Below, piece after piece: positions 14,228 through 23,760 of a stretch of DNA of 33,016 nt. The position numbers and the translations under genes were made by a program. The stretch comes from Planctomycetaceae bacterium (GTDB taxonomy: Bacteria; Planctomycetota; UBA8742; UBA2392; JABWBM01): NCBI GenBank assembly GCA_013360495.1, contig JABWBM010000020.1, forward strand, positions 1 through 33,016. Direction: 5' to 3'. Below the pieces are notes generated by a model. That model was not told the DNA's origin. It ran no database searches and saw only the letters and a list, made by a program, of their open reading frames with translations. The stretch's first letter is position 1. Each line of letters opens with the position of its first letter.

Positions 14228-14261
14228 GTACCCCTTGAGATACACAGGTGTACCCTTTGAG
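14228..14261 (+). promoter_or_regulatory. direct repeat pair (22-bp spacing) overlapping a dyad
   Basis: GTACCCCTTGAG (14228-14239) and GTACCCTTTGAG (14250-14261), 11/12 identical; dyad TACAC-AG-GTGTA at 14241-14252. Confidence 0.55.
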
Positions 14262-14334
14262 TGCAGAAGGGCAGGGCGTACAGCGTGTGCATCCTGCAGA
14301 GGACATCATTCGTGACTGGACAAAGGAGAAGAAC

Positions 14335-14736
14335 ATGATTTCGAAGGCGCTTTATGTTTTCTTGGTGATCGCAGCTCTTGTCGTATTGATTCCCGGAAGT
14401 GAAACCATTACCTCAGCTGGGACGATTGGTGCAGGGGGAAAGCCTGCGCAAGCTCCGCTTTCGACGACTGGCGTCATCGTCAATTACGATTTTCCTATAA
14501 CGGTTTATGCGACACTTGGTGGCGATATCAAAATTGTGGGGCCAGGAGGCCAAACGATTGCGCAATGCCAAGGCGGTCATGTTGAGCGATTCCCCGGTGG
14601 AGGATGGTCGTTCGATTTTCCTAATGGTCACCCATTCGAAGGTACAGACGGATACGTTGATGGAAATGGCAATGGGACTGGTACTTTGAATGGGGTTCCT
14701 GGCCAAGGGCCGCTTGATCTGCGCTTCCCCGGATAG
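14335..14736 (+). CDS. small secreted protein of unknown function
   Basis: 133 aa from ATG at 14335 after AAGGAG; N-terminal signal-like helix MISKALYVFLVIAALVVLIPGSETITSA; Gly-rich C-terminus. Confidence 0.75.
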   Translation: MISKALYVFLVIAALVVLIPGSETITSAGTIGAGGKPAQAPLSTTGVIVNYDFPITVYATLGGDIKIVGPGGQTIAQCQGGHVERFPGGGWSFDFPNGHPFEGTDGYVDGNGNGTGTLNGVPGQGPLDLRFPG

Positions 14737-14867: not shown

Positions 14868-15698
14868 TTACGGGCGACAATGGTGCCGCAGGAGCTGGTT
14901 GACGCGTTCGACCAGCTCCTTCGTATTGAAGGGCTTTTTAAGCACGTCGTCGGCGAGGTCGAGGCTTTCCTGATCCACATCGGCGTAGGTCGCGATCACC
15001 ACCGGGATGTTGCACGTTGCTTGATCGTGCTTCAACTCCGCGCATACTTCCCGTCCTGACATCTCCGGCATCATGTAGTCGAGCAGCACGAGGTCGGGCT
15101 TGCTGGACTTTGCCTTGTCGATCGCCTCTCGACCGCAGCAGGACGTGGCCACCCGATACCCCTCACGGGTGAGTGCGATGCCGAGGAGATGGACGGCGTC
15201 GGGTTCGTCATCGACGATCAGGATATGGGCGCCAGCGGGAGCCGTTCGCTGGGAAAAATGAGCTCTCTCCTTGACGGTGCGGAGTGTCGGCAGGCCGGCC
15301 GTATACCACGCCTGTTCGATTTCCATCTTGTACTTCCGGTTGGAGTCCTGAAGCGTCTTCCACTCGGTTTGGCCGAGCGCGATGACGCTGGTCTTGGCTT
15401 GGTCGTGGGTGTCGGCGGAGAAGTAGTACTGGTCGCCGCCCATAAAACGTTCCACCACGAATTTCATATGCGGATAGCGAGTATTGCCGAGACGGAGCAC
15501 GAAGCGGGCGCATTCGCCGCTGGTTCCCTTGCGGCGGGATTCGTCGATGAAGGCCGCCAGTGTGGCAGATAAAGGAGCCGATTCGTCGATGGCTGGCGGG
15601 GGAACCGGAGGGGTTTTGCCGTCGTAAGCGATGGAACAATAGATCGCAAGCGCTTTGGCGATGTCGGCTGAGGTCAAGCTGGGCTGCGTTTGCTGCAT
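14868..15698 (-). CDS. response regulator: unassigned N-terminal domain plus C-terminal receiver (REC)
   Basis: C-terminal HILIVDDEPDAVHLLGIALTREGYRV...LVLLDYMMPEMSGREVC...VLKKPF is a receiver domain; N-terminal ~165 aa carries LRLGNTRYPHMKFVVERF...YYFSADTHD. Confidence 0.9.
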   Translation of the reverse strand: MQQTQPSLTSADIAKALAIYCSIAYDGKTPPVPPPAIDESAPLSATLAAFIDESRRKGTSGECARFVLRLGNTRYPHMKFVVERFMGGDQYYFSADTHDQAKTSVIALGQTEWKTLQDSNRKYKMEIEQAWYTAGLPTLRTVKERAHFSQRTAPAGAHILIVDDEPDAVHLLGIALTREGYRVATSCCGREAIDKAKSSKPDLVLLDYMMPEMSGREVCAELKHDQATCNIPVVIATYADVDQESLDLADDVLKKPFNTKELVERVNQLLRHHCRP

Positions 15699-15739
15699 GG
15701 TCCTTGAGCCTGCCCGGTGTCGCCACAGACTCCCCCCCT

Positions 15740-15766
15740 ATTGTACGTTTTTGACGGATGTTGCAA
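15740..15766 (-). promoter_or_regulatory. candidate promoter of the response regulator gene
   Basis: Minus-strand TTGCAA (15766-15761), 15-nt spacer, TACAAT (15745-15740). Short spacer, so weak. Confidence 0.3.
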
Positions 15767-15855
15767 GTCATCGAATTTTCATGGAAACGATCATCGGTCA
15801 CCATGGCCCATGACCATTCCGCCGTAAAGAAGGCCAGTGACCGCGGGAGAGTCTT

Positions 15856-18800
15856 TCAGGACAGGCCGTTTTCAATGCGATCGAAGACTTTGAGCGGGAA
15901 GTCTTTGAGGGCGTCTAAAACCCGGGAATCGTTCTTGAGGAGTTGATACCGGAATGGCCGCTTCAGGAGGAGGTTGCGGAGCGCGCTCTCCATCACCTTG
16001 TTGGTTTCATTCTGGTTGCTGAGACCGCCACGCCACAGTTCGACGAGGTACATGATCAGTTGCACCATTTCGTCGTGCGAAACGCGCGGGATCGCCTTTT
16101 CCGCCTCATTGCGCACGACGGCGAGGTATTCCACCAGCTGGGTATAATCCCGCCCTTCTGTTTGATCAATCGCGCTGCGCAGGCGATGGAGGTCAAGGGC
16201 GTACTGCTGGTCGCCCGAGGCAAGTTTGCGCTCAGGGTTGGTAATGTAGAGATTCAACGATTCGTTCATTCGAATCGTACGGTCGATCTCCCCAAGAAGT
16301 TCTTCGTGGTCGCCTTGGGCCGCGTCGGAAGCGCGTTTGAGCAATCGCGCGCCTTCGTCGAAATCCCCGATGCGAGTGCGGGCGGCTCCCGCGGCGATAT
16401 CGGCTTGGACCGTCGCGGGCGAAAGCGTGACCGTATCGAGGAATTCACGGGTGAACTCGAGATTGCCCTGCCAATCGAGGTAACGCAGGGTTTCCTTGAA
16501 ATAGTAGGCTTTCAAGTCGGCGAACGTGACGGGAATGGTGTCGAAGCCTCCGCCACGTTCGCGCTCGGCTTCGTCAATGCGCCATGCAATTGTCTCGAAC
16601 GCTTCAAGCAGCGCTTGCCCATCGCCGCGCTCGGCAAGCAGGCGCAGGTAGTCACAGAGAGACGTCTTGAACCCGTCGAACCATTGGCGGGAGCCTTTAG
16701 CGAGCTCTTGAAGGCTTAAGACTTCGCGCTCGGTGTGCGGGTCCCACCGGTCGAATGTGAGCGCATGGGAGGCGATCGCTTCGTCAAATCGGCGCTGGCC
16801 TTCAAGGTGCTCCGCAAGAGCTCTCCGGGCAGCGCCAAAGTCGGGGTTCAATTCGAGCGCTTTGGCGAGATCTTTTTCCGTCGCGGCTGGAAGCCGGGAC
16901 GACATGGTTCCCGCGAGCCTTAGAGTTTGTTGTAAATAACGCGGAGCGATGGCGCGGGCGTAATAGCCGACCGGGTCGTTCGGGAATTTCGTGATAAAGG
17001 CATCCCATTGATCGATGACCAATCTGTTGAGCATGTATTCGCGTTCCGTCTTGCCAAGAATCCCCCGGCGATCCTGATAGTATTTATACGCGCTGAACAG
17101 ACTCGTGAAGTGAGTGCAGAGCGGAATATGCGGACGGAGGGCGACCGCGCGGCGAAAGGACTTTTCGACCTGCTCCATTTCCTTATCGGAGATCCGGTCC
17201 AGCATAAACTGGCCGGTCTTCGGATTTGCATTGAGGACGGTGAAGAAACCGGAGAAGAAGTGTACCTCCCAGAGCTGCTGTGTGTCGTTCTGGAGGCTTG
17301 CGAGCGTTTTGCGCAGCACATCCAGCGCGCGGGTACGTTCGGACATCGGGCTGTTTTGGTTGGCGATATCACGTCCTTGCAAGAGAGCCTTTGAAAGTTC
17401 GTGAATAATCGTGCCGTTCCCGGAGGCTGCGAAGGCCTTTTCGAGGTAGCGGTACATGCGTCCGAGGTGGATTGGGCCAGTAGCGTCGTCGTCGATCAGG
17501 AAAGCCACGGTCAGTTCGAGCATTGCCGCTGCCAGAAGCGAGTTCGGGTCGCCTTTTGATGCGTCGCTCTGTCCGTCCTCATCGGTGGCGGCGAGAAGGT
17601 CATTGCCATGGCGGAAATCGGCGAGGGCGGCATCGTAAAAGCCAAGTTCCATTTCGATGTAGCCGCGCTCGATGTAGGCGCGCTCGAACTCGGGGTCGAT
17701 GGCAATGGTTTCCGAACAGATGTCGAGGGCTTTATTGAGTGTTTGCGCGATCGAAGCGTGGTCGTCTTCACTGCTCGCGTTGGCCAGCATGTCCTTCGCG
17801 CGAAGCAGGAGGTCGGACGCTTCTCCGAGCACCGCCGTCGCATGCAGGCGCTGCGCCTGGCGCTCTTTCTCCAGGCGAACCTGATCGTTCAAGAGTTGTT
17901 CTTTAAGGCGCGCGTCTTTCTCCGCCTCCAGCCTCAAAGCCTGCTCGTTGGTTATCGCATCCTTCGCCGCCAGTTCGTTTTTGATTTGTTCCGCGCGCGC
18001 GGAGGCGGCGGCAAGATCGCTGGCGCTTTTATCTGCGTAGAACACCGCGATGACGGATGTTGAAATCAGGCCGACGAGCAGAACGGACGCGGCGGTGGTC
18101 GAGATCACACGATGACGTCCGGCCCATTTCAAGAGCCGCTTGTACATTGGCTCGTCATACGCCTTGACCGGCTCTCGTTTGATGAAGCGCTCCACGTCGC
18201 GGGCGAGTTCTTCCACGCTCGGGTAGCGTTCCGCGGCATTTTGCGACAAGGCCTTCAGCGCGATGGCGGCGAGTTCTTTCGGAAAGCGCTTGGCGCGCTC
18301 GATGGCGGCTCTGCACACCGGCGATCCGTCTGGCAGGGTTTCGTGTTTCTCCAGATCTTCGACGGCCTCCTTTGGCGGCAGAAGCTGGTATTTCTGCGCG
18401 CGCCTCAGCGCGTCGCGCGAGGACTTTGCGTGGAAGGGGGGGATAAAGGTGATCAGTTCGTACAGCAAGGCTCCGAGCGCGAACACGTCGGTGCGCTCGT
18501 TGATTTCGCTGATGCGTCCATGAGCTTGCTCAGGCGACATGTAGGCTGGTGTGCCGGAGATCGTTCCTTCGACGGTATGCTGGGACTCGCCGGGCGTTGT
18601 ATAAACAACGTCGCTGATGGTGTCCGTGGTCGTGGACGGGACATCCTTGCGGCCCATGATTTTGGCTAAGCCCCAGTCCATCACCTGCACTTCGCCGAAG
18701 CGGCCGACCATGATGTTGTCGGGTTTGAGGTCCCGGTGGATCACGCGCTTGCTGTGCGCGAAGCTCATGGCGTCGCACACTTTGATAAAGATTTCGCAAA

Positions 18801-19455
18801 ACTCGTATACGCCAAAGCGGGCGAGCGGCTTCTCCTCGCCGTCGCGCATAGCGTCGAGAATATCGCGTAGCGATTGTCCCTCCACGCGCTTCATCGTGAA
18901 GTAGATGCGCCCCTCGGAATCCGTCCCGATGTCATGGACGGGGACGATGTTCGGGTGCTCGAGTTGACCGGTGATCTGCGCTTCCTCGACAAAACGCTGC
19001 AATGGTGTGCGTTCGTCGGCCCCGCCAGTGGGCTTTTTGTGGGGGTCGCGCAAGACTTTCATCGCGACGTGACGGCGCAGGTCGGTGTCGATGGCGTCGA
19101 CGACGACGGCCATGCCGCCTCGCCCGAGCTCCTTGCGGACGCGGTAGCGGTCGGGGGATTCCTCGGCGAGTTTTTGCAAGCGGCCGGAGTCGGGCTTGCC
19201 GGGCTCCTTCGCGTCGAAGACCGTGGAGGCAGAAGAAATCGTCTCGTCCGGCCCGATGTCCGATGACAACGAGGCGTCGTCGAGGTCGAGGCTCAACATG
19301 TCGGAAAAGAGCGCGGTGTTGCGGCCGGTGTTGGGAGTGACTTTAAGCCATTCCGAGTCAAACACGGGAGTCAATGTTATGCCGGGTTTATCAACGGGCG
19401 CTTGCGCGCCGCTGTCGCTCGACTTCCGGTCTATCTTGTCACCCGGTTTGCTCAC
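15856..19455 (-). CDS. membrane Ser/Thr protein kinase with C-terminal TPR-like region
   Basis: GRGGMAVVVDAIDTDLRRHVAMKVL, VIHRDLKPDNIM, MDWGLAKIMG, GTPAYMSPEQAHG; TM-like STTAASVLLVGLISTSVIAVFY; TPR-like AYIERGYIEMELGFYDAALADF. GTG at 19455 preceded by GGAGAG is favoured over the track start at 19527. Confidence 0.93.
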   Translation of the reverse strand: MSKPGDKIDRKSSDSGAQAPVDKPGITLTPVFDSEWLKVTPNTGRNTALFSDMLSLDLDDASLSSDIGPDETISSASTVFDAKEPGKPDSGRLQKLAEESPDRYRVRKELGRGGMAVVVDAIDTDLRRHVAMKVLRDPHKKPTGGADERTPLQRFVEEAQITGQLEHPNIVPVHDIGTDSEGRIYFTMKRVEGQSLRDILDAMRDGEEKPLARFGVYEFCEIFIKVCDAMSFAHSKRVIHRDLKPDNIMVGRFGEVQVMDWGLAKIMGRKDVPSTTTDTISDVVYTTPGESQHTVEGTISGTPAYMSPEQAHGRISEINERTDVFALGALLYELITFIPPFHAKSSRDALRRAQKYQLLPPKEAVEDLEKHETLPDGSPVCRAAIERAKRFPKELAAIALKALSQNAAERYPSVEELARDVERFIKREPVKAYDEPMYKRLLKWAGRHRVISTTAASVLLVGLISTSVIAVFYADKSASDLAAASARAEQIKNELAAKDAITNEQALRLEAEKDARLKEQLLNDQVRLEKERQAQRLHATAVLGEASDLLLRAKDMLANASSEDDHASIAQTLNKALDICSETIAIDPEFERAYIERGYIEMELGFYDAALADFRHGNDLLAATDEDGQSDASKGDPNSLLAAAMLELTVAFLIDDDATGPIHLGRMYRYLEKAFAASGNGTIIHELSKALLQGRDIANQNSPMSERTRALDVLRKTLASLQNDTQQLWEVHFFSGFFTVLNANPKTGQFMLDRISDKEMEQVEKSFRRAVALRPHIPLCTHFTSLFSAYKYYQDRRGILGKTEREYMLNRLVIDQWDAFITKFPNDPVGYYARAIAPRYLQQTLRLAGTMSSRLPAATEKDLAKALELNPDFGAARRALAEHLEGQRRFDEAIASHALTFDRWDPHTEREVLSLQELAKGSRQWFDGFKTSLCDYLRLLAERGDGQALLEAFETIAWRIDEAERERGGGFDTIPVTFADLKAYYFKETLRYLDWQGNLEFTREFLDTVTLSPATVQADIAAGAARTRIGDFDEGARLLKRASDAAQGDHEELLGEIDRTIRMNESLNLYITNPERKLASGDQQYALDLHRLRSAIDQTEGRDYTQLVEYLAVVRNEAEKAIPRVSHDEMVQLIMYLVELWRGGLSNQNETNKVMESALRNLLLKRPFRYQLLKNDSRVLDALKDFPLKVFDRIENGLS

Positions 19456-19546
19456 CGGACACTCTCCATGACGGTCGAAGGAACGGCCGCTCCCGTATCT
19501 AACGGTTGAGTTCCTCAAAGGTTGCATCTATCCGGGTCACATATGC

Positions 19547-19552
19547 ATTATA
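19547..19552 (-). promoter_or_regulatory. candidate -10 element (TATAAT) upstream of the kinase gene
   Basis: Perfect TATAAT on the minus strand in the FHA-kinase intergenic gap; no clear -35 seen. Confidence 0.35.
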
Positions 19553-19581
19553 CTTGCCACAGAGACGGGACGCGCTTTTTT

Positions 19582-22353
19582 TCACTCGCCGCCGCGCGAG
19601 ATGTCATTCCCTTCGCCTTCGTCGACATTCCCGAAAAGTTGCGTCCAGACCGTTCCATAACGGCCGTTCCCCATCACGACCCAGATGTCATTGAGCACGT
19701 TGCGGCTATGACCGGAGCTGGCAATCCACGCGAAGTGTGAGCTTTCGGCAGTGGGGGTTCCAGAATTCCAATGAATGTTCTCGCCCGCCGGATGGTTGTA
19801 GCCCTCGTAACGGGCGCGGTCGCCGGGTCCTTCGCCTCGCGGTTCGCCTTTGATGTAGTGAGCGATGGTGCTGTTGTTGTGTTCGACGATGTATTTCGAA
19901 TGGTGCCAGCATGCCCAGGAAAGCTTGAAGTTCATCTTGAGCGCGCGCCGCCCCATCATGATGCGGTATTCGTTGGTAATTCTTAGTTGTTCCCATTGTT
20001 CGTCGGCGGGCGCGCCTTTGACGCCCTTGTGCTTCTTCCAGCGCTCCGCGTTTTCTTCCATGACTGCGGCGTTATAAACCATCATCTGTTTCTCGGCGTC
20101 ATTGAGCGCGAAGGTTCGCACGTCGAGTTGTTTGTTGGCGAGCGCGCCGAGGTAGTCGATATCGGCGGCGCTGGTGGATTGGTGGAAAGTCTTTTCCGAG
20201 TCGAGCTGATCCATGCGGGCGTTGATCCAGACGAGGATTTTGAGGTTACGCTCGAAGTCCGGGTTTTTCTTACCCTGGAGATTCACAGGATTGTTCCAGA
20301 CCTCTTCTACCTTCTCGATCAGGTCAATCACTTCCTTCGTCACGGCTTGATTGTTCGGGCCGTATGGATAGGGCCAGCGTTGCTCGTCGTAAATCAGCTT
20401 GATGGCGTCTGCGCGCCGGCGGTTGAGTTCTTCCTTCAGCGACTTCAACTCTGAGGTGTCGCCGAACAGGCCGGTGGCTTTTTCCGCGATCGCACGAATC
20501 TCCACACGTTTGGCATCGAGCGCCTTAATCGTGGGCTCGACGGCGACATCGCCGAGCAGGAACAATTCGTCAAAGGCCTCATCGGCCGCGCGCAGTGTTT
20601 CATCCTTCCGGTCGTTGACGCCATCGAGGAGTTGCTTGATGAACGCTTGGATCTGGGCGTCGAGCTGGGCCTTGTCACGCTCCATGGGCGCCATGAAGCG
20701 CCCCTCGTGGACGACGAAACCACCCTCAGGGATCGCCATCTTTCGCTTGGAGGCGATAAGGATGTCGATGCCTTCCTTTGCCGAATGGTCAAACTCATAC
20801 ATTTCCACTAACCATGTGCATGCGAGTTGGACGTTGCCGCGTTCGAAGGCGAGGAGCGAAAGCCCGAGGAGACTGTCCTTCCCGCGTTTTCCCGCTGAGG
20901 TCAGCAGGGTGGAGAGTTGTTCGGGCAGAAACTCGCGCCAGGGAATCTCGCGGGTCGACCCGCCGGTGATGACGGCCTTGACGCCATCGGCGGTGACGTC
21001 CTGAACGACAGCGTGGAAGGTTGCGAATTTGAGGCTCGCGGAACGCAGCTTTTCTTTTGCGCCGGCGAGCGTTTCATAGAGCGTTCTGATTGCTGCTGCT
21101 TCGCTCTCCGGCCCATTGGGCAGGAGGGGGTTATGGCCCGGGAGGCGCAGCTTGGTCGGCGGCTTGAGCTTGCTGAGGATGTCATTGGCGTCCCCCTCGA
21201 CACTCGGGCGCTCGAGCACGGGGGAAGTTTTGCTTCCCCGAGCGATGGCTTCCTCCAGCTTGAGGAGTTTTGTTTCAAGCGCGGCGTCCGTGAATGCATC
21301 CATGATTAACTGCGCGCGAGCCGTCATGAGGAGCGCTTTGCCTTCCTCGTGGTTGCCCAAGGTGGCGGCATTATCGGCGCGCATGACAAGCACATCGAAA
21401 TACTGAGCGTTTTCTTCGGGCAGCACGGAGTCGCGGAGGTTACGCAACTCCGCCTCGAAATCCCTTGCTCCCGTCCGTCCGCGCCAATAGGAATTTCGCG
21501 TCTCGACGCTCTTCAACGCGGCCTGAACATCGGCGAGCGCCTTGGCGTATTCGCATTTCTCGCGGTGGAGGTTGACTTCACGGGTTACGTTCGAGCGCCA
21601 TTCCACAATGCCACTGTCAATCTGGTTGTCAGTGAGGGAAATCAGGTCCGTAAGCCGTGCAGCGAGGACGGTCCCGGACACATCGCGCTTGTTCTCCCTC
21701 TGGAACTGGGCGAGCTTGACCGCGCGTTCTTCCGGTGGTTCGGCCGCTTCGATCGCGTCGAGTTCGTCGCTCAGTTTCTTCAATGCCGGGGAAAGCGGAG
21801 TCTGGTCTGGTGTCCGCGCTTCGGAACGTGCTGGCTGGCTCGCTGTTCCCACGGACTGGCCGGGGGCGTTGTTCGTCACAAGAGCCCAAAAAATCACGCC
21901 GCCGGCAGCCAGTGCCACGCACGCCACGATCACGACGAGCGTTGCATTGCTTTTTACCTGCGTCGCCGGAACACGGTGGCGCGGAACGGGATGCGCGCGG
22001 CCAGAATGAGGCGCGTTCGAGCGCTTGTGTGGCGGCGCTTTCTCAGGCGCGGCGTGAGAAGGCGCGAATTCCACGCCAATGGTTGTTCCGCCGATCATCG
22101 CCGTTGAACCATTGAGCAGGTCGACGAAATTCGCTGGCTTGCCGTTGAACTTCGTGCCGTTCGCGCTGCCGAGGTCGATCAGCCGCCAGCAATTGCCGCG
22201 AAATTCGAGCCGCCCGTGCGTACGGGAAGCATGAGCCTCGAACTCGATCACGATGTCGCAATCCTTGCGGCCGATGGTGTAGGCGCGAGCGCGGTCGAGC
22301 GGCACCGCGCGCGGAGCGTCAAGCGCTGGAGACTGAATCGTCAAGCGCTCCAA
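19582..22353 (-). CDS. FHA domain - TM - large extracytoplasmic region - CAP/SCP-like domain protein
   Basis: N-terminal FHA-like YTIGRKDCDIVIEFEAHASRTHGRLEFRGNCWRLIDLGSANGTKFNGKP; TM ATLVVIVACVALAAGGVIFWALV; C-terminal CAP-like GENIHWNS...HFAWIASSGHSRNVLNDIWVVMGNGRYGTVWTQLFG. Confidence 0.85.
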   Translation of the reverse strand: MERLTIQSPALDAPRAVPLDRARAYTIGRKDCDIVIEFEAHASRTHGRLEFRGNCWRLIDLGSANGTKFNGKPANFVDLLNGSTAMIGGTTIGVEFAPSHAAPEKAPPHKRSNAPHSGRAHPVPRHRVPATQVKSNATLVVIVACVALAAGGVIFWALVTNNAPGQSVGTASQPARSEARTPDQTPLSPALKKLSDELDAIEAAEPPEERAVKLAQFQRENKRDVSGTVLAARLTDLISLTDNQIDSGIVEWRSNVTREVNLHREKCEYAKALADVQAALKSVETRNSYWRGRTGARDFEAELRNLRDSVLPEENAQYFDVLVMRADNAATLGNHEEGKALLMTARAQLIMDAFTDAALETKLLKLEEAIARGSKTSPVLERPSVEGDANDILSKLKPPTKLRLPGHNPLLPNGPESEAAAIRTLYETLAGAKEKLRSASLKFATFHAVVQDVTADGVKAVITGGSTREIPWREFLPEQLSTLLTSAGKRGKDSLLGLSLLAFERGNVQLACTWLVEMYEFDHSAKEGIDILIASKRKMAIPEGGFVVHEGRFMAPMERDKAQLDAQIQAFIKQLLDGVNDRKDETLRAADEAFDELFLLGDVAVEPTIKALDAKRVEIRAIAEKATGLFGDTSELKSLKEELNRRRADAIKLIYDEQRWPYPYGPNNQAVTKEVIDLIEKVEEVWNNPVNLQGKKNPDFERNLKILVWINARMDQLDSEKTFHQSTSAADIDYLGALANKQLDVRTFALNDAEKQMMVYNAAVMEENAERWKKHKGVKGAPADEQWEQLRITNEYRIMMGRRALKMNFKLSWACWHHSKYIVEHNNSTIAHYIKGEPRGEGPGDRARYEGYNHPAGENIHWNSGTPTAESSHFAWIASSGHSRNVLNDIWVVMGNGRYGTVWTQLFGNVDEGEGNDISRGGE

Positions 22354-22504
22354 TCGATGCTCCGTGGTGGCCGTCGAACGGGGAATCAGGGCGCGTCCAT
22401 TTTAGGAGCGTTTCTGCGTCCGATCCATTGCCAGAATACAGAAGTTTTCCAAAGCGATGGTGTCGCCGCTACGCGGCTGTAACAGGGCTGAGAGGTACCA
22501 GGGG

Positions 22505-23488
22505 TTACCAGAAATAGGACGCGCCAAAAGTAATGACGAAATACGTCGGGCGCGACAGGTCCGTATACAAGGGGTCTCCCGGGAGATCGGCCGCGAACGT
22601 ATTGAAGTTCATGGGCGCGGAGAGGTAGAGGCCTCCGGTAAAGCGCCAGGAATTGATCAGGTTACCACGCTCGCCAATGAAGGTTGGCGTGAAGACAACG
22701 TCGCCGCCAATGTTGAGCAGGTAGGACGGCAGGAAATTATGAGAGCGAACCAGCACGCCGTCGAGGTTTCTCGTGGTACCGGCGCCGCTGGACAAACCGG
22801 TATCGGTTGAGTCATGGGTCCCAATATCCACCTGATCAGAGAGGTGATAATTCATCTCAAGCCACAACGCTGGGTCGATCTGGAAGGAATCGGTCAGCGG
22901 TATGTCCATCGCCACGCCAAGGTCGAAGCCAACCGTGGAGAGACCGTTGAGCGAGTCAAAGTCTCCGAGGAAGAATCCGAGATCAATGCCAAGCAGCATG
23001 GACAGATTGAAATTGCTGCGCGAACGGCGCCCATCGCGCTCGACAAATTCCGATTTGTAGAAATTGAACACCCAATCGAATCCGAACTTCGCGATAGTCG
23101 CCGTTTTGGAAATCGTTCCGAAGCCGGTTGGATCGGGGTCTGTGATTTCGACGGCGTGGCTCACCAGGTCCAACGCCAGGTTCGTCCCCGCGATATCGCT
23201 GTCTGTTCCCATCTGGTATTCGAACGATATTCCCGCCACAGTTTCATTGCGGGTCAAAGGGGTTCCGTCGCCGAGGCGGCCACCGCCGCCGATATCGGAA
23301 ACAACCTGAGCGCGATACATGTCGCCCGCGACCATGGCGCCGAGCAGGAATCCTGCGCCGAAGCCGCCAACGTCGTGCTTGCCTTCCCGGACGTTGTAAT
23401 TGAGTGCCTGAGCGGAGCGTTGCGCGGACACAATAGGGCTTCCGGTCAGAAGGCCAAGAATCAATGCGATCATCCAGCGGCCAGACAT
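22505..23488 (-). CDS. putative outer membrane beta-barrel protein
   Basis: Signal peptide MSGRWMIALILGLLTGSPIVSAQ; C-terminal TYFVITFGASYFW resembles a barrel-terminal aromatic strand; ATG at 23488 preceded by GGAGGAAAG (track start 23578 is upstream). Confidence 0.7.
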   Translation of the reverse strand: MSGRWMIALILGLLTGSPIVSAQRSAQALNYNVREGKHDVGGFGAGFLLGAMVAGDMYRAQVVSDIGGGGRLGDGTPLTRNETVAGISFEYQMGTDSDIAGTNLALDLVSHAVEITDPDPTGFGTISKTATIAKFGFDWVFNFYKSEFVERDGRRSRSNFNLSMLLGIDLGFFLGDFDSLNGLSTVGFDLGVAMDIPLTDSFQIDPALWLEMNYHLSDQVDIGTHDSTDTGLSSGAGTTRNLDGVLVRSHNFLPSYLLNIGGDVVFTPTFIGERGNLINSWRFTGGLYLSAPMNFNTFAADLPGDPLYTDLSRPTYFVITFGASYFW

Positions 23489-23760
23489 AACTTTCCTCCC
23501 GACCGCCAATGCCCGGAACTTCGCGGATGGAGTATCCACAGTGACGCGAAGAGGGCATTCAAGGCGTTCGTATCTCAATCAGTTGCTTTACGAACAGGCG
23601 GACTCGGGGGGGAACCATCCGCACCGAATGATATGAAGTGTGGCGGGATGCTTTCAACGTAAAACCCTTGGCTTCATGGATTTGTCATCGGCTCGAATGC
23701 GCGCCATTTCGATCAACCGCCGCGTGAGCGGTAACGCACTACCTTGTTCGCTCGAGCGCA

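Follow-up and report, generated by a model that had tools for sequence, protein, structure and literature searches.

A membrane-spanning FHA-CAP protein family of Planctomycetota, viewed from a four-gene run with a Hanks-type kinase, a receiver protein and an outer-membrane-like protein

A planctomycete genome carries, side by side, genes for a receiver protein, a Hanks-type Ser/Thr kinase, a protein that joins an FHA domain to a CAP domain across a transmembrane helix (FHA-CAP), and an outer-membrane (OM)-like protein. We lean, at little better than even confidence, towards an incidental gene run without a dedicated four-part system, whose key member is a stand-alone FHA-TM-CAP transducer acting from the cytoplasm to the envelope. 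The best-supported reading of FHA-CAP itself is a conserved one-piece transducer from threonine phosphorylation to an extracytoplasmic CAP domain, with neighbours that depend on the lineage; its receiver and OM-like neighbours are most likely incidental. We propose that a cytoplasmic partner may receive phosphate on a threonine from one or several of the many Hanks kinases in the cell. The FHA domain of FHA-CAP would dock at that phosphorylated threonine, and docking would position or cluster FHA-CAP and so control the CAP domain at the envelope. The adjoining kinase may be among those that feed FHA-CAP, though nothing marks it as dedicated.

The window, that is, the whole 33,016-nt stretch of DNA that was analysed, is contig C33 of a 3.42-Mb, 256-contig Planctomycetota MAG (family f1). 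Gene calls and Pfam searches on it agree with the preliminary description that four minus-strand genes follow one another here:

14868-15698, minus strand: receiver protein (RR), 276 aa; an N-terminal domain of about 150 aa followed by a CheY-type receiver (Pfam Response_reg, E=1.5e-22, at residues 159-267 only)
15856-19527, minus strand: Hanks-type Ser/Thr kinase with a TM segment (478-496) and an extracytoplasmic TPR-like region, assigned from Pfam and motifs; 1223 aa from ATG, alternative start GTG 19455
19582-22353, minus strand: FHA-CAP, 923 aa from a TTG start; FHA, TM, helical region and CAP, assigned from Pfam, sister-family orthologs and a structure model
22505-23578 (from TTG), minus strand: OM beta-barrel-like protein with a signal peptide and a C-terminal ...YFW; alternative ATG 23488, giving 327 aa

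All four reading frames are judged real because each has full-length orthologs. The OM-like gene had been taken to end at the ATG at 23488. Gaps of 157 bp (RR/kinase) and 151 bp (FHA-CAP/OM-like) separate the outer pairs, and the kinase/FHA-CAP gap is 126 bp from GTG 19455 or 54 bp from the upstream ATG; the lower end of the earlier range of 126-157 bp comes from the GTG start. A terminator and promoter scan of these gaps gave results at or below shuffle expectation, with no convincing terminator, and is uninformative. The RR gene is bordered on the opposite strand by a 162-aa open frame (14248-14736, plus strand) whose N-terminal segment is hydrophobic and which matches no family. The window's genome contains about 22 kinase matches and 11 FHA matches in 3.4 Mb. 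From this density we estimate that kinase-FHA adjacency would arise by chance in roughly 0.1-0.2 pairs per genome, and the adjacency of the four genes is not clearly beyond chance.

The FHA-CAP protein has the FHA-TM-CAP arrangement first proposed for it, with an FHA domain (residues 25-84), a TM helix (137-155), a long helical region and a CAP domain at about 784-909, so that one TM helix separates FHA from CAP. The FHA domain is recognised by Pfam (E=1.7e-11; 44.8 bits against a cut-off of 20.7), and the structure model shows an FHA fold and a TM helix, the FHA part matching phosphothreonine-binding FHA domains in the PDB. In an alignment of 14 orthologs, residues R29, S43, R44, N65, G66 and T67 are invariant; the domain thus belongs with FHA domains both by fold and by its canonical Arg/Ser/Asn phosphothreonine-binding residues. 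The CAP region of the window copy alone scores 18.1 bits, under the Pfam cut-off of 21.1; all 14 aligned orthologs match the CAP profile at E<=0.01 (best 8.9e-10), and it is on these matches that the region fits the CAP superfamily sequence profile. Residues H832, E858 and H882 are invariant in the same alignment. The model has low confidence over residues 828-923, and no CAP structure stands among the fold matches listed for it; there is a weak sequence match to 4ifa. The protein combines this architecture with a topology-compatible TM helix, phosphothreonine-binding residues and a conservation that is independent of the other three genes. We infer phosphothreonine binding and, likewise, the orientation of the protein, the activity of its CAP domain and its target. 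A relative from the same class (L085:4085-8095) has three FHA domains ahead of the CAP region by Pfam; the EBP label that our own HMM gave to L085 is probably an artefact of the FHA repeats, as it probably is for L001, L002 and L008, on contig C124, whose protein has three FHA domains.

The kinase was also correctly described as a kinase-TM-TPR protein. It matches Pfam Pkinase at E=1.7e-38, retains intact motifs (AMK155, HRDLKP264, DWG284 and SPEQ) and has a single TM segment, and its TPR region is weak in the window protein and clear in an ortholog (Pfam); catalytic motifs, TM and TPR side together place it among the Hanks-type kinase-TM-TPR proteins of Planctomycetota. Judged from its sequence, it is apparently catalytically active, and its activation segment is rich in threonine (DWG...STTTDTISDVVYTTPGESQHTVEGTISGTPAYMSPEQ). 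The window kinase and a sister-family kinase of ~1090 aa are best matches in both directions; searching back into the window's genome places the window kinase first, with 428 bits vs 241 for the runner-up kinase. In the sister family this ortholog frequently stands second in a tandem kinase-TPR pair of ~1480 and ~1090 aa (L090, L093-L098), as against seemingly one kinase-TPR gene in the window's genome.

The Pfam match likewise confirms the receiver call, and the receiver domain, at the C-terminus of RR, has a conserved-looking phosphorylation site. Residues 1-150 match no Pfam family, Pfam recognised no DNA-binding or other output domain in the protein, and no histidine kinase was recognised adjoining its gene; the crosstalk to the response regulator that had been suggested finds no support. 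The N-terminal ~150 aa are conserved, again ahead of a receiver, across 12 further genomes of the class. The OM-like protein matches no Pfam family. Its predicted structure is all-beta at low confidence (pLDDT 56), and the PDB matches listed for it are nearly all outer-membrane beta-barrel proteins or BAM complexes, which is consistent with the OM-barrel-like assignment made earlier.

Whether the four genes stay together was examined by an ortholog search in 20 genomes of the class, 16 of them from the sister family f2; family f1 is represented by the window's genome alone. Full-length FHA-CAP orthologs occur in all 16 sister-family genomes, kinase orthologs (~1090 aa) and OM-like orthologs in 15 each, and full-length RR orthologs in 11 as well as in one other family. 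No kinase, RR or OM-like gene lies within the flanks (up to ~10 kb each side) of FHA-CAP at the sister-family loci. In G004 (5 contigs), FHA-CAP is at C2:674k, the kinase at C2:770k, the OM-like gene at C2:119k and RR at C1:1026k; in G011 (6 contigs) the positions are C1:310k, C2:134k, C1:1309k and C1:2346k, respectively, so that in these two genomes the genes are separated by 96 kb up to megabases or sit on different contigs. Adjacency, set beforehand as the test that could refute a four-gene module, is thus not kept in the 16 genomes. As a control, hemE, hemH, hemG and tldD of the window are likewise scattered in f2, and because gene order is generally not kept between f1 and f2, the lost adjacency is weak evidence against a module: it removes support for one yet leaves room for a module specific to f1. 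At 10 of the 16 sister-family loci (L070, L073, L074, L075, L077, L078, L079, L080 and L081, and cut off in L071) the gene upstream of FHA-CAP encodes a secreted protein of ~1050 aa with no Pfam family; we rejected this candidate, its homolog in the window's genome being elsewhere, on contig C176.

Across the phylum, a protein search of 150 Planctomycetota genomes found relatives of the window FHA-CAP in 65 of them at E<=1e-12, many of these relatives matching on the CAP side only, with FHA recognised separately in most of 60 loci. These 60 loci are the better-scoring matches of the 150-genome sample, and neighbour counts among them are lower bounds because some contigs stop close to the gene. 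A conserved order of UvrD, FHA-GAF-sigma54 activator, FHA-TM-CAP, small FHA protein, LptF and LptG is found at L179, L180, L181, L196, L197, L199, L200, L208 and other loci, several of its junctions being 3-4 bp apart or overlapping. UvrD lies upstream of FHA-CAP at no fewer than 19 of the 60 loci, the sigma54 activator upstream in the same orientation at 21 or more (including cases one gene further off, or truncated with FHA unseen), the small FHA gene directly downstream at at least 21, and the LptF/LptG pair downstream at at least 14. Activator-linked loci span 13 planctomycete families. Pfam confirmed GAF-sigma54-HTH_8 in the activators of six loci from five families (L180, f53; L153, f80; L208 and L181, f41; L199, f32; L196, f30) and FHA in five of these six, that of the L208 copy being seen only with our own profile; FHA in the small partner protein was also confirmed by Pfam. 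In an IQ-TREE tree of the helical-CAP region, the root of which is arbitrary, cluster-bearing FHA-CAPs form one clade of 28 (100/99), the window and f2 proteins form a separate clade (100/100) outside it, and another clade includes FHA-CAPs beside valS. A second FHA-CAP type (L144, L145, L185, L194, L203, L205 and L218) adjoins genes for valyl-tRNA synthetase, a GH3 hydrolase, DAHP synthase and a decarboxylase in a conserved neighbourhood. No description of FHA-CAP proteins or their cluster was found in the literature searched, mostly outside subscription journals, in agreement with the preliminary description, which did not recognise the four-gene combination as a described system; FHA-TM-CAP is apparently a widespread, undescribed family.

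Possibly, though this is doubtful, the kinase signals together with FHA-CAP as a genuine pair, with the receiver and OM-like genes as bystanders. The TPR-bearing kinase would sense an envelope cue and autophosphorylate its activation segment or else phosphorylate a partner; FHA-CAP, through its FHA domain, would then bind the phosphorylated kinase or partner, linking two extracytoplasmic regions. The two proteins each have one TM segment and a cytoplasmic signalling domain, their genes are same-strand neighbours, and the threonine-rich activation segment is in keeping with such a pair. Moreover, two loci of the phylum have a same-strand kinase directly upstream of FHA-CAP, a kinase-TPR gene 277 bp away at L141:4266-10770 (f10) and 166 bp away at L142:3069-8790 (f40). 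These two kinases are orthologous to each other (40% over 538 aa; next best 162 bits) and their FHA-CAPs are sisters in the tree (100/97), so this pairing has been kept, and because kinase adjacency arises independently in the f10/f40 clade the idea is still plausible. However, the window kinase is of another subfamily than the f10/f40 kinases, which lie on the opposite side of FHA-CAP, so the pairing in the window arose separately; sister-family genomes keep both proteins, but apart. Nor are kinases enriched near FHA-CAP, with 1.24 kinase genes per 100 kb around the 60 loci (967 kb) vs 2.97 in the background, a comparison from which we conclude only that there is no enrichment because the background is small, with 19 stretches drawn from nine genomes that also supplied loci, and leans towards genomes rich in kinases. 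We consider it unlikely that all four genes form a lineage-specific module, a single envelope signalling chain put together within family f1 alone. The shared strand, gaps of 54-157 bp and lack of a convincing terminator within them would fit such a chain, but gaps of this size leave space for separate promoters, all four families occur separately in relatives, where none of the other three is seen to adjoin FHA-CAP, and the receiver protein has neither a recognised output domain nor a recognised histidine kinase beside it.

Just as improbable, in our judgement, is an origin of the run as a leftover or side branch of the phylum cluster. FHA-CAP is homologous to the middle gene of that cluster, and the window's genome retains an FHA-sigma54 activator (L005) and LptF/LptG, but these are on other contigs (C38 and C203, respectively), while C33 reaches 19 kb and 10 kb past FHA-CAP. 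The cluster is absent at the window, where the FHA-CAP neighbours are the OM-like protein and the kinase, and near all 16 sister-family FHA-CAP loci, and the window and f2 clade falls outside the cluster clade under the arbitrary root. A broader reading, which we hold tentatively, makes FHA-TM-CAP a phylum-wide class of phosphothreonine-to-envelope transducers with partners that depend on the clade. The large clade might work with the FHA-GAF-sigma54 activator, the second FHA protein and the LptF/LptG permeases, and the f10/f40 and window FHA-CAPs might each pair with a kinase-TPR sensor; if so, the cluster clade would use threonine phosphorylation to bring outer-membrane biogenesis into step with sigma54 transcription. 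We favour the incidental run with a stand-alone FHA-TM-CAP transducer because FHA-CAP is kept throughout the sister family without the other three genes in its flanks, and because one clade links it to FHA genes and LptF/G, not to a kinase. This preference is weakened by f1 being a single genome, by the scrambled gene order, by the upstream kinase kept in f10/f40, and by background stretches that come from nine genomes only.

Planctomycetes have many Hanks kinases and nearly no assigned readers or outputs, and the link that FHA-CAP makes between a reader and an extracytoplasmic CAP domain is a concrete output candidate for this signalling. In many families FHA-CAP has a sigma54 activator and LPS-export permeases for neighbours, which shifts attention from the chance-like neighbours in the window to the UvrD/FHA-sigma54/FHA-CAP/FHA/LptFG cluster. 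The closest parallel in outline is the Fha/PpkA threonine phosphorylation pathway, as in Agrobacterium TssL-Fha (PMC3953482), which likewise has a Hanks kinase, an FHA reader and a membrane output; the window FHA domain differs in being fused via a TM helix to CAP, without a conserved kinase link, and no type VI secretion (tss) genes were recognised among the seven proteins scanned around FHA-CAP. Kinase-TM-TPR proteins have already been described as common in Planctomycetota, and the window kinase is an ordinary member with a cytoplasmic kinase and a periplasmic TPR side (PMC11032199). Only its FHA-CAP neighbour is unusual. The CAP region shares with bacterial CAP/SCP proteins (YkwD-type, PF00188) the conserved C-terminal NEYR, H, GEN, SGH-RN and WTQ-FG segments. 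Bacterial CAP/SCP proteins are usually simple secreted proteins, whereas the window CAP is joined to a cytoplasmic FHA domain. The FHA-GAF-sigma54 activators do not adjoin the window's FHA-CAP, but they too carry an FHA reader, and they are genetic neighbours of FHA-CAP in those 13 families.
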